Shown here: positions 5,322-42,536 of the stretch, piece after piece
Layout of the letters: the number at the start of each line of letters is the position of its first letter
Numbering within the stretch: position 1 is the first letter of the stretch
Source: Silvibacterium dinghuense
GTDB lineage: Bacteria > Acidobacteriota > Terriglobia > Terriglobales > Acidobacteriaceae
Direction: 5' to 3'
NCBI RefSeq assembly: GCF_004123295.1
Contig: NZ_SDMK01000001.1
Location: forward strand, 1,364,001 to 1,428,000
DNA length: 64,000 nucleotides
Translations under genes and position numbers: made by a program
The notes under the pieces: model-generated
What the model saw: only the letters and a program-made list of their open reading frames with translations
Databases searched by the model: none
Told to the model about the DNA's origin: nothing

Positions 5322-5413
5322 TCATTGCCACCCCGACCGGAGCGACCGTCCCACTTCTTGTCATTCCGACCGAAGAGAGCCGAAGGCGAGCGCAGTGGAG
5401 GAACCCGCGGTTT
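5322..5413. repeat. Family D repeat, one partial and one complete copy
   Basis: A truncated copy (ACCCCGACCGGAGCGACC) is followed by a full copy at 5360-5413 running GTCATTCCGACC to CCGCGGTTT. It lies between the rbfA stop and the nrnA start, inside what is otherwise a co-oriented gene pair. Confidence 0.75.
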
Positions 5414-5835: not shown

Positions 5836-5861
5836 CTCTCGTTACCTCGAATAAACCTTTG

Positions 5862-5890
5862 AGGATATCAGAGAGGTAGATTTGGGCCAA
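5862..5890 (-). promoter_or_regulatory. Candidate promoter of rbfA-nrnA
   Basis: On the minus strand TTGGCC (5890-5885) and TATCCT (5867-5862) are separated by 17 bp, about 30 bp upstream of the rbfA start. It would let rbfA-nrnA be transcribed although the operon upstream is interrupted. Confidence 0.4.
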
Positions 5891-5914
5891 ACACGCCAGA
5901 GCAATGCGCCAGGT

Positions 5915-6184
5915 TCAATCTGAATTCAATGGAGAAATTGGATCGTCGACGAGATTACGATCCCCATCCATTCGGGCATAGCCTTCCGTCCAACTGTCTC
6001 TGTCCAGTGAATAAGGATGCACCTGAAAGCCTTGCACGTACTGCCTAAATCCGGGTTGCCCTTTGAGGCGTTCAATTGCAGCTCTAGCGTTGGCTTCGGA
6101 GCTGTACACACCAACCAAGAGCTCAGTATCCTCACCCTCATCCCAGAGCCTTACATACCAGAGTAGAAACACGACATCAACCAT
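5915..6184 (-). CDS. DUF7336-like small protein
   Basis: 89 residues from the ATG at 6184, chosen because AGGA lies 8 nt upstream; the frame stays open further upstream. The sequence VFLLWYVRLWDEGEDTELLVG, the YSSEANARAAIERLKG segment and the DSWTEGY end look like the DUF7336 domain, a short protein of unknown function. Codon choice is less GC-rich than in the rbfA and infB genes around it, so it may be acquired. It belongs to the block that splits the infB operon. Confidence 0.6.
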   Translation of the reverse strand: MVDVVFLLWYVRLWDEGEDTELLVGVYSSEANARAAIERLKGQPGFRQYVQGFQVHPYSLDRDSWTEGYARMDGDRNLVDDPISPLNSD

Positions 6185-6300
6185 GCCAGCCATCCTACTG
6201 CGTGGCGTCGGCGATGAACCAACCCATACCCGGGTGGCCCATTCAAGCCCGAAGCTGGCTTGAGTAGGACGGTACAAACTTTTCCCCAGCCATAACCTCT

Positions 6301-6345
6301 GTCATCCCGACCGGAGCGCAGCGAAGTGGAGGGACCTGCGGTTTT
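6301..6345 (+). repeat. Family D repeat, left arm of the GIY-YIG bracket
   Basis: Runs GTCATCCCGACCGGAG to ACCTGCGGTTTTT in the forward sense. It pairs with the inverted copy at 6709-6761; only the GIY-YIG gene lies between them. Confidence 0.8.
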
Positions 6346-6407
6346 TCCCTTGTCTACGTCACCACTGCAACTGACGTCCCGGCGTGCGCTCTTATAAAAG
6401 CAATCGC

Positions 6408-6710
6408 ATGGCTGTGGACCGGCACTACTTTGTCTATCTCATGGCGAGCCGTACGCACGTCCTCTATTGCGGTGTCACAGGCAATCTTGAGAGGAGAACC
6501 CATCAGCATCAACACCGCTCACTCGAAGGCCTCAGCTCTCACTATCCCTGCACGCGGCTCGTGTGGTTCGAAGGTTTCGACGATGTCCGCAGCGCTATAG
6601 GCCGCGAAAAGCAGATCAAGCGCTGGAGAAGAGAAAAGAAGCTGGCGCTTATCAGGAAGATGAATCCGTGCTGGGTCGATCTGAGTGAGGACTGGAGGCC
6701 TGAGAAATAA
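6408..6710 (+). CDS. Small GIY-YIG nuclease-domain protein
   Basis: 100 residues from ATG 6408; a GTG at 6384 is an alternative and neither has a clear ribosome-binding site. It is a stand-alone GIY-YIG domain. YFVYLMAS (7-14) gives the GIY position and LYCGVTGNLERR (19-30) the YIG position with the catalytic Arg. AIGREKQIKRW (63-73) carries the expected metal-binding Glu67. Such single-domain proteins resemble UvrC-type or YhbQ-type nucleases; their roles are mostly unknown. The TAA stop overlaps the terminus of the right family D repeat, and the left copy ends about 60 bp before the start, so the gene is tightly bracketed by inverted repeats. Confidence 0.85.
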   Translation: MAVDRHYFVYLMASRTHVLYCGVTGNLERRTHQHQHRSLEGLSSHYPCTRLVWFEGFDDVRSAIGREKQIKRWRREKKLALIRKMNPCWVDLSEDWRPEK

Positions 6711-6761
6711 CCGCAGGTTCCTCCACTGCGTTCGCCTTCGGCTCTCTCCGGTCGGAATGAC
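6709..6761 (-). repeat. Family D repeat, right arm of the GIY-YIG bracket
   Basis: Inverted copy, reading on the minus strand GTCATTCCGACCGGAG to ACCTGCGGTT. It overlaps the last bases of the GIY-YIG stop codon. Confidence 0.8.
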
Positions 6762-6836
6762 AGAGCTTACCGATGGTCCACCGCCCACCTCTCGCACTCC
6801 AAAACGTGGGACAATCCCCCGAGCAAGGAGGCCCGC

Positions 6837-7235
6837 ATGCCCCCATCCCAAACGAAGGCCAGCATCGACTCCATAGCCCCGTTCTTCATCGTGAGCGATG
6901 TCCCGCGCAGCCTCGCCTTCTACCACGACAGGCTCGGCTTCGAGACGCAGTTCCAGCAACCGGACGATGCCTCGTTCTTCGCCATCGTCGCCCGCGACAG
7001 CGTCATGCTCTTCCTGAAATCCGGCAACGCCGCGCCGCAACCAAACGCCACGCGCGATCCCGAGATGCGCTGGGACGCCTACTGTTTCACATCCGATCCC
7101 GACTCGCTCGCCGAAGAGTTCCTCGCATGCGGCGCGACCTTCAGCTCACCACTCAAAAACACCCACGACGGCCTGCGCGGCTTCGAGATCACCGATCCCG
7201 ACGGCTACGTCCTCTTCTTCGGCCGTCCGCATTAG
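6837..7235 (+). CDS. VOC-family (glyoxalase/bleomycin-resistance fold) protein
   Basis: 132 residues with the paired beta-alpha-beta-beta-beta pattern of the vicinal oxygen chelate superfamily. APFFIVSDVPRSLAFYHDRLGF opens the first module and FEITDPDGYVLFFGRP closes the second, with the usual Asp-Pro-Asp-Gly turn and late acidic or aromatic residues. The substrate is unknown. AGGAGG lies about 10 nt upstream of the ATG. Family D repeats flank it on both sides (6709-6761 inverted, 7254-7307 direct). Confidence 0.8.
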   Translation: MPPSQTKASIDSIAPFFIVSDVPRSLAFYHDRLGFETQFQQPDDASFFAIVARDSVMLFLKSGNAAPQPNATRDPEMRWDAYCFTSDPDSLAEEFLACGATFSSPLKNTHDGLRGFEITDPDGYVLFFGRPH

Positions 7236-7253
7236 CGAACCTTCTTAATAGAT

Positions 7254-7428
7254 GTCATCCCGACCGAAGCGAGCCAAAGGCTCGCGCAGCGGAGGAACCC
7301 GTAGTTTCTCCATCCGCGAGGATCCGGGTGCCTCACGTCTCGCTTTTGAGACGTGGGTTCGCAGGGTTTCCCATCAACCACAAAGGCTCGTACTTTCCCG
7401 CCCAAGCGGAGCCTGGACGGGGCACCCA
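7254..7428. repeat. Family D copy followed by an A-B two-hairpin unit
   Basis: A D copy spans 7254-7307. The A-B unit spans 7325-7428: hairpin A (CACGTCTC facing GAGACGTG), a spacer of about 30 bp, then hairpin B (CCGCCCAAGC facing GCCTGGACGG). GGGTGCC and its inverse GGGCACCC stand at the two ends. Confidence 0.75.
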
Positions 7429-7451
7429 GGTTTTCAGCTAAAAGCTAATGG

Positions 7452-23887: not shown

Positions 23888-24119
23888 TCGCGACCGACGG
23901 GAGCGAAAGGCGAACCGCCCGGGTGGCTAGGCGGCATCCACAATATAAATAACCAGGCTGAAAATAAACGACTGATATTACGAATTGTCATTCCGACCGG
24001 AGAGAGCCGTAAGGCGAACGTAGCGGAGGAACCTGCAGTTCTCTCGGGCCCAGGCAGAACTGCAGGTTTCTCCGCTACGCAGGACGATAAAAACCGTCCT
24101 GCTCCGGTCGAAATGACAA
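23888..24119. repeat. Family C fragment plus long family D inverted pair
   Basis: A C copy covers 23888-23928. At 23985-24119 two D copies face each other: GTCATTCCGACCGGAG and GGAGGAACCTGCAGTTCT on the left, their near-perfect complements on the right, with about 15 bp between. The pair could form a hairpin of over 50 bp. Confidence 0.8.
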
Positions 24120-38643: not shown

Positions 38644-39007
38644 CAGGGTGTCCCATATCTCATGCTTTTCGAGATGCGGGTGTGCAGGCCTATGCAAAAT
38701 CTTCTGGATTCGTACCCTCCCCCAACGGAGCTTGGATGGGCACCCAGCTTGTTGCTCTAGCGGAGTGAAGGAACCTGCAGTTCTTCGCTGATACAGGCGA
38801 ACCGCGGGTTCCTCCACTGCGCTTCTCCACCCCAGCGCGCCAACATCAGGCGCGCCGGGGACCCCGGTTCGCTCCGGTCGGAATGACAACGTGAGAAGGA
38901 GGCTTCGGTCGGGATGACAATTTGCGTAATGGCTCAACGGGGATACGACCTGGCTCGCGACCAGCGGGAGCGGAGGCCGATGGCGTATCGCCCTGCGCGC
39001 AGCAGCC
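38644..39007. repeat. Dense repeat cluster A-B, D pair, D end, C
   Basis: An A-B unit lies at 38644-38747. A D inverted pair at 38754-38890 has a truncated left arm and a right arm split by a GCGCGCC-type hairpin (38827-38862). An extra D end (CTTCGGTCGGGATGACA) is at 38901-38921 and a C copy at 38954-39007. Together with 38483-38643, where I see nothing, this fills 567 bp without a gene. Confidence 0.7.
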
Positions 39008-41110: not shown

Positions 41111-41292
41111 TGTCATCCCGAGCGAGCGGAGCGAGTCGAGGAACCTGCGGTTAAGCTTCAGATACTGGAGATATTCCGACGCGTAGAACAGCAGGTCCCT
41201 CCACTGCGCGAGTCGAAAAGGCGTCTCGCGCCGGCCGGGATGACAATATTTTTGTGTAAGACGAGAAGACTGCCTCACTTCGGTTGGGATGA
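41111..41292. repeat. Family D inverted pair plus an extra D end
   Basis: The left arm is 41111-41152 (GTCATCCCGAGCGAGCGGAG to ACCTGCGGTT), the right arm 41190-41247, with a spacer of about 37 bp. A further GTTGGGATGACA end lies near 41270-41292. Confidence 0.75.
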
Positions 41293-41357
41293 CAGGCTTT
41301 CGGTATCGGACCCACAGCCGCACACGGCTCACACACCTCTGACAGGAGAGACCAGCG

Positions 41358-42171: not shown

Positions 42172-42536
42172 TGCTGCGCGCAGGCTGGGACTGGCCGTCC
42201 AGGCCTTTCGCCTTCAGCCTCCGCTCCCGCTGGTCGCGCTCCGACGAGCTCAGGACTCGGACAGGAGTATCAAGGATAGGGATGCCCGTCCAAGCTCCGC
42301 CTGGGTAGGAAGGCAGATTTCTATTCCCCAGTCACTGGGCTTGCGAGAGACATCCTCGTGCAGGAACAGGAAACGTATCAGGGCACGGCTTCAGCCGTGC
42401 CGAAACAAGTCTCGCGATGGGAGCCGATCGGGCTCGTCGCTTCCCCAACCGCCCGCAGTTTTCCTTATCCCCTGCTGCTATCTCGCGACCGGAGTGAGCG
42501 GAGGCCAAAGGCGAGCCGCCCTGCGCGCAGCAGTCC
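42172..42536. repeat. Repeat cluster C (inverted), B, C
   Basis: Long C at 42172-42239, B at 42280-42316 and a direct C at 42483-42536. The last copy overlaps the 3' end of the PL5 gene and encodes its final 15 or so residues. Nothing else is seen in 42171-42477. Confidence 0.75.

Follow-up and report, generated by a model that had tools for sequence, protein, structure and literature searches.

A minimal GIY-YIG nuclease gene between inverted tagged hairpin repeats: a candidate partner for CGTC-tagged REPs in Silvibacterium dinghuense and other bacteria

Introduction

The closest described relatives of the locus reported here are the REP/RAYT systems (REPtrons, REPINs), in which one nuclease gene lies between inverted copies of a hairpin repeat that is tagged and dispersed. 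Our locus shares with them gene-less head-outward repeat pairs, repeat variants that match the enzyme and repeats that outlast the loss of the gene, a likeness seen at the level of sequence. In contrast, RAYT is an HUH/Y1 enzyme and its REPs are tagged with GTAG, whereas the gene described here encodes a GIY-YIG nuclease and its repeats carry a (C/T)GTC tag, which is TGTC in the S. dinghuense repeat (hereafter D).

A second group, the CGTC-tagged REPs, has been described as bearing a CGTC, TGTC or CCTC tag, a stem starting with AT, a CCA tail and a tendency to form head-head dimers, and its CGTC-1 type has been equated with the neisserial dRS3 (Di Nocera et al. 2013, PMC3733652). The same study checked transposase genes, reported that in many species no gene for a tyrosine transposase lies between CGTC repeats, and concluded that these REPs lack a dedicated transposase. 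The repeats studied here resemble CGTC-tagged REPs, including dRS3 and the rickettsial RPE-4 and RPE-6, in their unpaired CGTC/TGTC/CCTC tag, AT stem start, CCA-like tail and head-to-head dimers; the Azospirillum and Neisseria examples fit the description fully, whereas D, from an acidobacterium, departs from it in its greater length, its bulge and a first A that stands opposite C. Whereas the 2013 study left this group without a dedicated transposase, a gene partner is found here.

GIY-YIG nucleases are known in the service of mobile elements, namely in homing endonucleases such as I-TevI and in Penelope-like elements. Unlike these, the locus described here lacks an intron, a reverse transcriptase and any added DNA-binding module such as NUMOD, and its ends are tagged hairpins. 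We know of no GIY-YIG enzyme that acts as a transposase. The protein shares its minimal single-domain fold and the conserved Y, R and E catalytic positions with UPF0213/prokaryotic Slx1-like proteins (YhbQ, PDB 1zg2, 1ywl), for which we found no repeat association described. A 2006 study of the superfamily put the Slx1-like proteins of prokaryotes in one group, pointed to genes into which Slx1-like GIY-YIG domains had recently been inserted and raised the question whether further GIY-YIG proteins could be parasites (PMC1564403). No link of GIY-YIG to REP, REPIN, dRS3 or CGTC repeats was found in the literature searched, which reached subscription journals and preprints only in small part.

Results

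The element and its dispersed repeats

The window, a 64,000-nucleotide stretch of S. dinghuense DNA, had been read in a first-pass annotation as containing a 100-residue GIY-YIG domain between two inverted D copies, the right copy overlapping the stop codon and nothing else lying inside. This reading was confirmed, and the parts are as follows.

6300..6345, + strand: left D repeat and outer end of the element, with tag TGTC, head ATCCCGACCG and tail GGAGGGACCTGCGG
6346..6407, + strand: leader from the left repeat to the start codon, recognisably similar in the other copies of the same genome
6408..6710, + strand: stand-alone GIY-YIG nuclease gene, 100 aa, of the UPF0213/prokaryotic Slx1-like clade
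6709..6762, - strand: right D repeat, inverted, with tag TGTC, ATTCCGACCG ... GGAGGAACC

The whole measures 463 bp (6300-6762). The D head TGTCATYYCGACCG is found at 6300 (+) and at 6749-6762 (-), and both copies have their heads (TGTCAT) outward while the tails, GGAGGGACCTGCGG and GGAGGAACCTGCGG, point inward. The reading frame runs from the ATG at 6408 to the stop at 6710, matches the Pfam GIY-YIG domain (E 3.9e-12) and shares two bases of its stop codon with the right D copy. On the left the element is neighboured by rbfA and a 120-aa ORF, and on the right by a glyoxalase-like gene, DUF503 and infB. Further D repeats are scattered over the window:

5359..5413, + strand: single gene-less dispersed D repeat, downstream of rbfA
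7253..7308, + strand: single D repeat containing a strong inner hairpin
23986..24118: gene-less head-outward D pair (REPIN-like), folding into one long hairpin (z -10.8)
38765..38919: D repeat cluster, two heads in direct orientation plus tails
41111..41294: head-outward D pair with one further D-like head

The TGTC tag is conserved in 67 D heads; conservation begins at the tag and information falls outside it. The YYYC of the head and the GRRR of the tail co-vary, being fully complementary in 40 of 45 copies, a value reached by 0/20000 shuffles (mean 14.7, maximum 27). The two copies that bracket the gene use different yet matching stem letters (TCCC/GGGA and TTCC/GGAA). The repeat has a 4-bp compensating stem, then a bulge, plus an inner hairpin, and its first A stands opposite C. 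Minimum free energy folding finds two of the three folded D monomers not unusual, the stem being visible only through the compensatory changes. Judged by these changes, D is a tagged hairpin, a bulged and longer relative of the simple alphaproteobacterial type. Over 408 kb examined, opposed D neighbours less than 250 bp apart had their heads outward in 8 cases and the opposite way in none, next to 13 neighbours in the same orientation; head-outward pairs without a gene are common.

Three copies in one genome

The 5.12-Mb genome holds 260 D heads, about one per 20 kb, against 0 matches to the reversed control pattern. Its four GIY-YIG matches are UvrC, with no D repeat at its locus, and three stand-alone genes of about 100 aa each. 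Each of the three stand-alone genes (the other two at C1:1323437 and C4:276783) lies between two D repeats with outward heads, in one and the same geometry and with outer ends about 460 bp apart. Their proteins are 72-85% identical among themselves, and the three loci are homologous along the unit, while the flanks beyond TGTCAT/ATGACA are unrelated. By this comparison they look like three copies of one discrete element, and the similarity of the leader in the other copies indicates that it belongs to the mobile unit.

The only Y1 transposase of the genome (C1:2075683) has no D head within 1.5 kb and is flanked by unrelated TIRs containing GGGCACGGCTTCAGCCGTGCC; it was accordingly rejected as the mover of D in this genome. 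A second, HUH-type repeat system seems to coexist with the GIY-YIG system. One exact copy of the 21-mer GGGCACGGCTTCAGCCGTGCC lies in the window, at 42381-42401.

The nuclease

Residues Y20, T24, L51, E55, R66, E67, K68, W73, N86 and D91 are invariant in 74 homologues, and Y10, G22, R30 and H34 nearly so; the GIY-YIG catalytic Y, R and E positions are present in the window protein. Its structure model, which is of good confidence (pLDDT 87.6), has 1zg2 as the best fold match, and the nearest solved folds are UPF0213 proteins and Slx1. The protein consists of one 100-aa domain, with no separate DNA-binding domain or NUMOD. Slx1 is a structure-selective nuclease, and by analogy such selectivity would suit a hairpin substrate. 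The E. coli protein YhbQ, a wider relative within the same broad family, carries the annotation of a DNA damage response nuclease, and its gene has no flanking repeats; therefore, only part of the family is repeat-associated. Carriage of the gene by phages was also considered and rejected, since the window protein had no match among phage records.

Gene and repeats in related genomes

Members of the nuclease family were detected at E <= 0.001 in 30 of 61 genomes, of which 28 gave clear matches over the full length. Counts of D-like heads are 2-272 in genomes of the same family as S. dinghuense and 0-4, the background level, in genomes of the sister family, which have no clear member of the nuclease family. 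The presence of at least 10 heads is associated with presence of the gene (Fisher p 4e-7, uncorrected for phylogeny), a trend that weakens when only the own family is considered (p 0.013). The first-pass annotation had reasoned that D repeats equally abundant in genomes without the gene would speak against the link. This is not what we find, as abundance tracks the gene, but several gene-less genomes keep their repeats: near-complete genomes without the gene carry as many as 93 (G006) and 45 (G056) heads. In RAYT systems, repeats likewise occur without the gene.

In the relatives, D-like heads concentrate within about 300 bp of the nuclease gene. A de novo search identified strong inverted repeats (score >=20) at 21 of 30 own-family loci, including the three of S. 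dinghuense, and found them even at loci where the repeat sequence is a different one.

Recurrence across phyla

A sample of 80 loci was chosen by protein similarity alone, 75 of which had sufficient flank; it spans Acidobacteriota, Planctomycetota, Proteobacteria, Verrucomicrobiota, Chloroflexota, Bacteroidota, Patescibacteria, Clostridia, Bifidobacterium and others. Flanking inverted repeats scored at least 20 at 45 of the 75 loci and at least 25 at 36, as against 8 and 0 of 1905 control positions in the same loci. Control ORFs rarely have strong flanking repeats (5/374 overall, 2/118 isolated and 0/143 short ORFs). With no motif assumed, TGTCAT was the most enriched inverted-pair hexamer (39% vs 0.1% in controls). 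The remaining 30 of the 75 loci score below 20, so that some genes are decayed, have diverged arms or lie outside such elements. In the Bradyrhizobium family, the nuclease is present in 105 of 120 genomes, strong inverted repeats of several sequence types flank 25 of 26 loci, and GTCATTCCGGG is commoner in genomes with clear nuclease matches (median 29 vs 4). The gene itself is patchy, with 0-13 copies per genome. The proposal that homologues in other genomes also sit between inverted tagged repeats is thereby borne out in the own family, across phyla and in the Bradyrhizobium family, and there is hardly any doubt that the unit of gene and repeats exists and is widespread.

The repeat at the flanks is the repeat dispersed in the same genome, and its type changes with the nuclease. 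GTCATTCCGGGGC is present in 26-258 copies in six alphaproteobacterial genomes whose genes carry it and in 0 copies in seven genomes with GTCATYCYGRGCG-type flanks; conversely, the GTCATYCYGRGCG-type pattern has 67-366 copies in five of its seven genomes and 11 and 2 in the other two. A planctomycete (G084) has one nuclease gene, whose flanks carry the alphaproteobacterial repeat, and only two exact copies of that repeat genome-wide, 566 bp apart, which is the distance expected between the two flanks of the gene. The two copies are most likely these flanks, which suggests arrival by transfer; a recent transfer is likely, the alternative being contamination of the assembly. Genomes with multiple genes have different repeat variants at different nuclease genes, and some copies are decayed. 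Nuclease similarity correlates with arm similarity (Mantel r 0.31, 0/2000), a correlation that would equally be expected if gene and repeats descend together as one unit.

Species already known for CGTC-tagged repeats fit the pattern. At the Neisseria gonorrhoeae homologue the repeat is dRS3, the Azospirillum lipoferum gene is flanked by CGTCATCCCCGCGAAGGCGGGGATCCA, a textbook CGTC-tagged REP, and the Sinorhizobium meliloti gene has CCTC-tagged repeats. Homologues in Shinella and in an Aeromonas caviae record are also repeat-flanked, and two Rhizobium plasmid homologues have no strong flanking repeat. The tag is unpaired in the folds of the Azospirillum, Neisseria and Bradyrhizobium repeats, and an 8-9 bp stem starting with complementary AT and closed by a loop of 4-5 is present at loci L165 and L166, the latter being that of A. 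lipoferum.

Alleles without the gene

In A. lipoferum (L166, 2504-2797) the element lies inside the suf operon, between sufB and sufC and along the direction of transcription; sufB and sufC are adjacent in four other Azospirillum species, with flanks 91-97% identical. At one site, some Sphingobium plasmids have the element and others do not; in two alleles lacking the nuclease gene (L209 and L211, at about 770-860) the site carries a palindrome of about 30 bp, which from its sequence looks like the two element arms fused after loss of everything between them. At the window site, DUF503 and rbfA lie close together, with no GIY-YIG gene between them, in most relatives examined, and the gap in S. 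dinghuense is about 1.6 kb (5836-7451) and contains the glyoxalase-like gene, the element and the 120-aa ORF. Empty sites at the gene level thus exist in Azospirillum and Sphingobium; at the window site, where the first-pass annotation had suggested looking for one, the insertion holds extra genes besides the element. Neither an exact junction nor a target duplication was resolved in the Azospirillum, Sphingobium or G000 versus G006 comparisons, the intergenic flanks being too diverged.

Discussion

We propose that the 463-bp segment at 6300-6762 is probably an autonomous REP-type mobile element and that the clade of its nuclease is the dedicated enzyme of (C/T)GTC-tagged REPs. The architecture, its recurrence, the match between flanking and dispersed repeats, the hairpin and the gene-level empty alleles are established by computation, and we infer binding, cleavage and movement by the GIY-YIG protein. 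That the nuclease acts on its own repeats seems to us quite probable. The idea of a RAYT-like logic with a GIY-YIG enzyme, put forward when the locus was first noticed, thus has good support as an association, in the form of recurrent inverted tagged flanks, and nicking and spreading would be the presumed activities of the protein.

According to our model, the two inverted tagged hairpin repeats enclose the gene of a minimal GIY-YIG nuclease, and these hairpins would be what the enzyme recognises and cuts. Most likely it binds the hairpin in its folded form, with the (C/T)GTC tag unpaired, in single-stranded or cruciform DNA, and it would cut beside the tag at both ends of the element; with the help of host replication or repair, the element might then be excised or copied and reinserted. 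The dispersed D repeats, whether solitary or paired with heads outward, would be non-autonomous offspring of the 463-bp element. The UPF0213/Slx1-like clade would be the missing enzyme of CGTC-tagged REPs, using the REP/RAYT logic with an unrelated nuclease, and might serve (C/T)GTC-tagged REPs, including dRS3, as the RAYT HUH transposase serves GTAG-tagged REPs.

What would this mean for bacterial repeats? Genomes of many phyla carry CGTC-tagged REPs, dRS3 or related repeats, each in tens to hundreds of copies, and these repeats now have one concrete small candidate enzyme whose candidate substrate is defined. We regard it as the strongest candidate so far for the mover that this widespread repeat family has been missing. 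If the model is correct, GIY-YIG joins the few nuclease folds known to power transposition in bacteria, the REP logic has evolved at least twice with unrelated enzymes, and many genes annotated merely as 'GIY-YIG nuclease family protein' are accounted for. We also lean towards a new class of prokaryotic mobile element, whose sole protein would be a minimal Slx1-like GIY-YIG nuclease, with (C/T)GTC-tagged hairpin ends, present in many phyla and lying behind one of the two REP superfamilies, dRS3 included. Taken one by one, the repeats, their logic and the fold of the protein are all known already, and a class of its own would be deserved if the enzyme were shown to move the repeats.

Could the repeats have come first and spread otherwise, with the GIY-YIG gene as a homing-type parasite that uses paired repeats only as landing sites? 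Such a parasite would fit the tagged repeats of genomes without the gene, the frequent head-outward pairs with nothing between them and the recent insertions of Slx1-like domains into other genes (PMC1564403). Nevertheless, the gene seems to bring its own repeats, as in the planctomycete whose only two alphaproteobacterial-type copies are at its flanks, different repeat variants are found at several genes of one genome, and copies resemble one another in the leader that separates repeat and gene. Homing enzymes of the GIY-YIG superfamily typically have added DNA-binding modules, which are absent here. We therefore consider this explanation unlikely.

The kinship of the protein with UPF0213 and Slx1, and the annotation of the repeat-less YhbQ as a DNA damage response nuclease, also allow it to be a housekeeping structure-specific repair enzyme (Slx1/YhbQ-like) whose gene is accompanied by repeats that mark recombination-prone or permissive intergenic sites. 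Control ORFs of the same loci, isolated or short ones included, scarcely ever have such flanks, however; besides, patchy presence, variable copy number, decayed copies and an insertion within the suf operon are unlike a housekeeping gene, and make this role improbable.

REPs in general have been attributed to HUH enzymes and the genome does have a Y1 transposase, so D might be moved by a RAYT/TIRYT HUH transposase with the GIY-YIG gene as a passenger. The unrelated TIRs of that Y1 gene, its distance from any D head and the absence of tyrosine transposases flanked by CGTC repeats from many species (Di Nocera et al., PMC3733652) leave this very improbable. Finally, intergenic repeats could have gathered around a small gene by chance, which is conceivable given the frequency of D heads; the probability of this is negligible, since it is refuted by the position and ORF controls, by the bracketing of 3/3 genes in this genome and by recurrence in many phyla.

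One further homologue, on a Planktothrix plasmid, has an MmeI-type restriction-modification gene on one side and the DISARM gene drmA on the other, and clusters of GTCATTCTGAG repeats flank it on either side.
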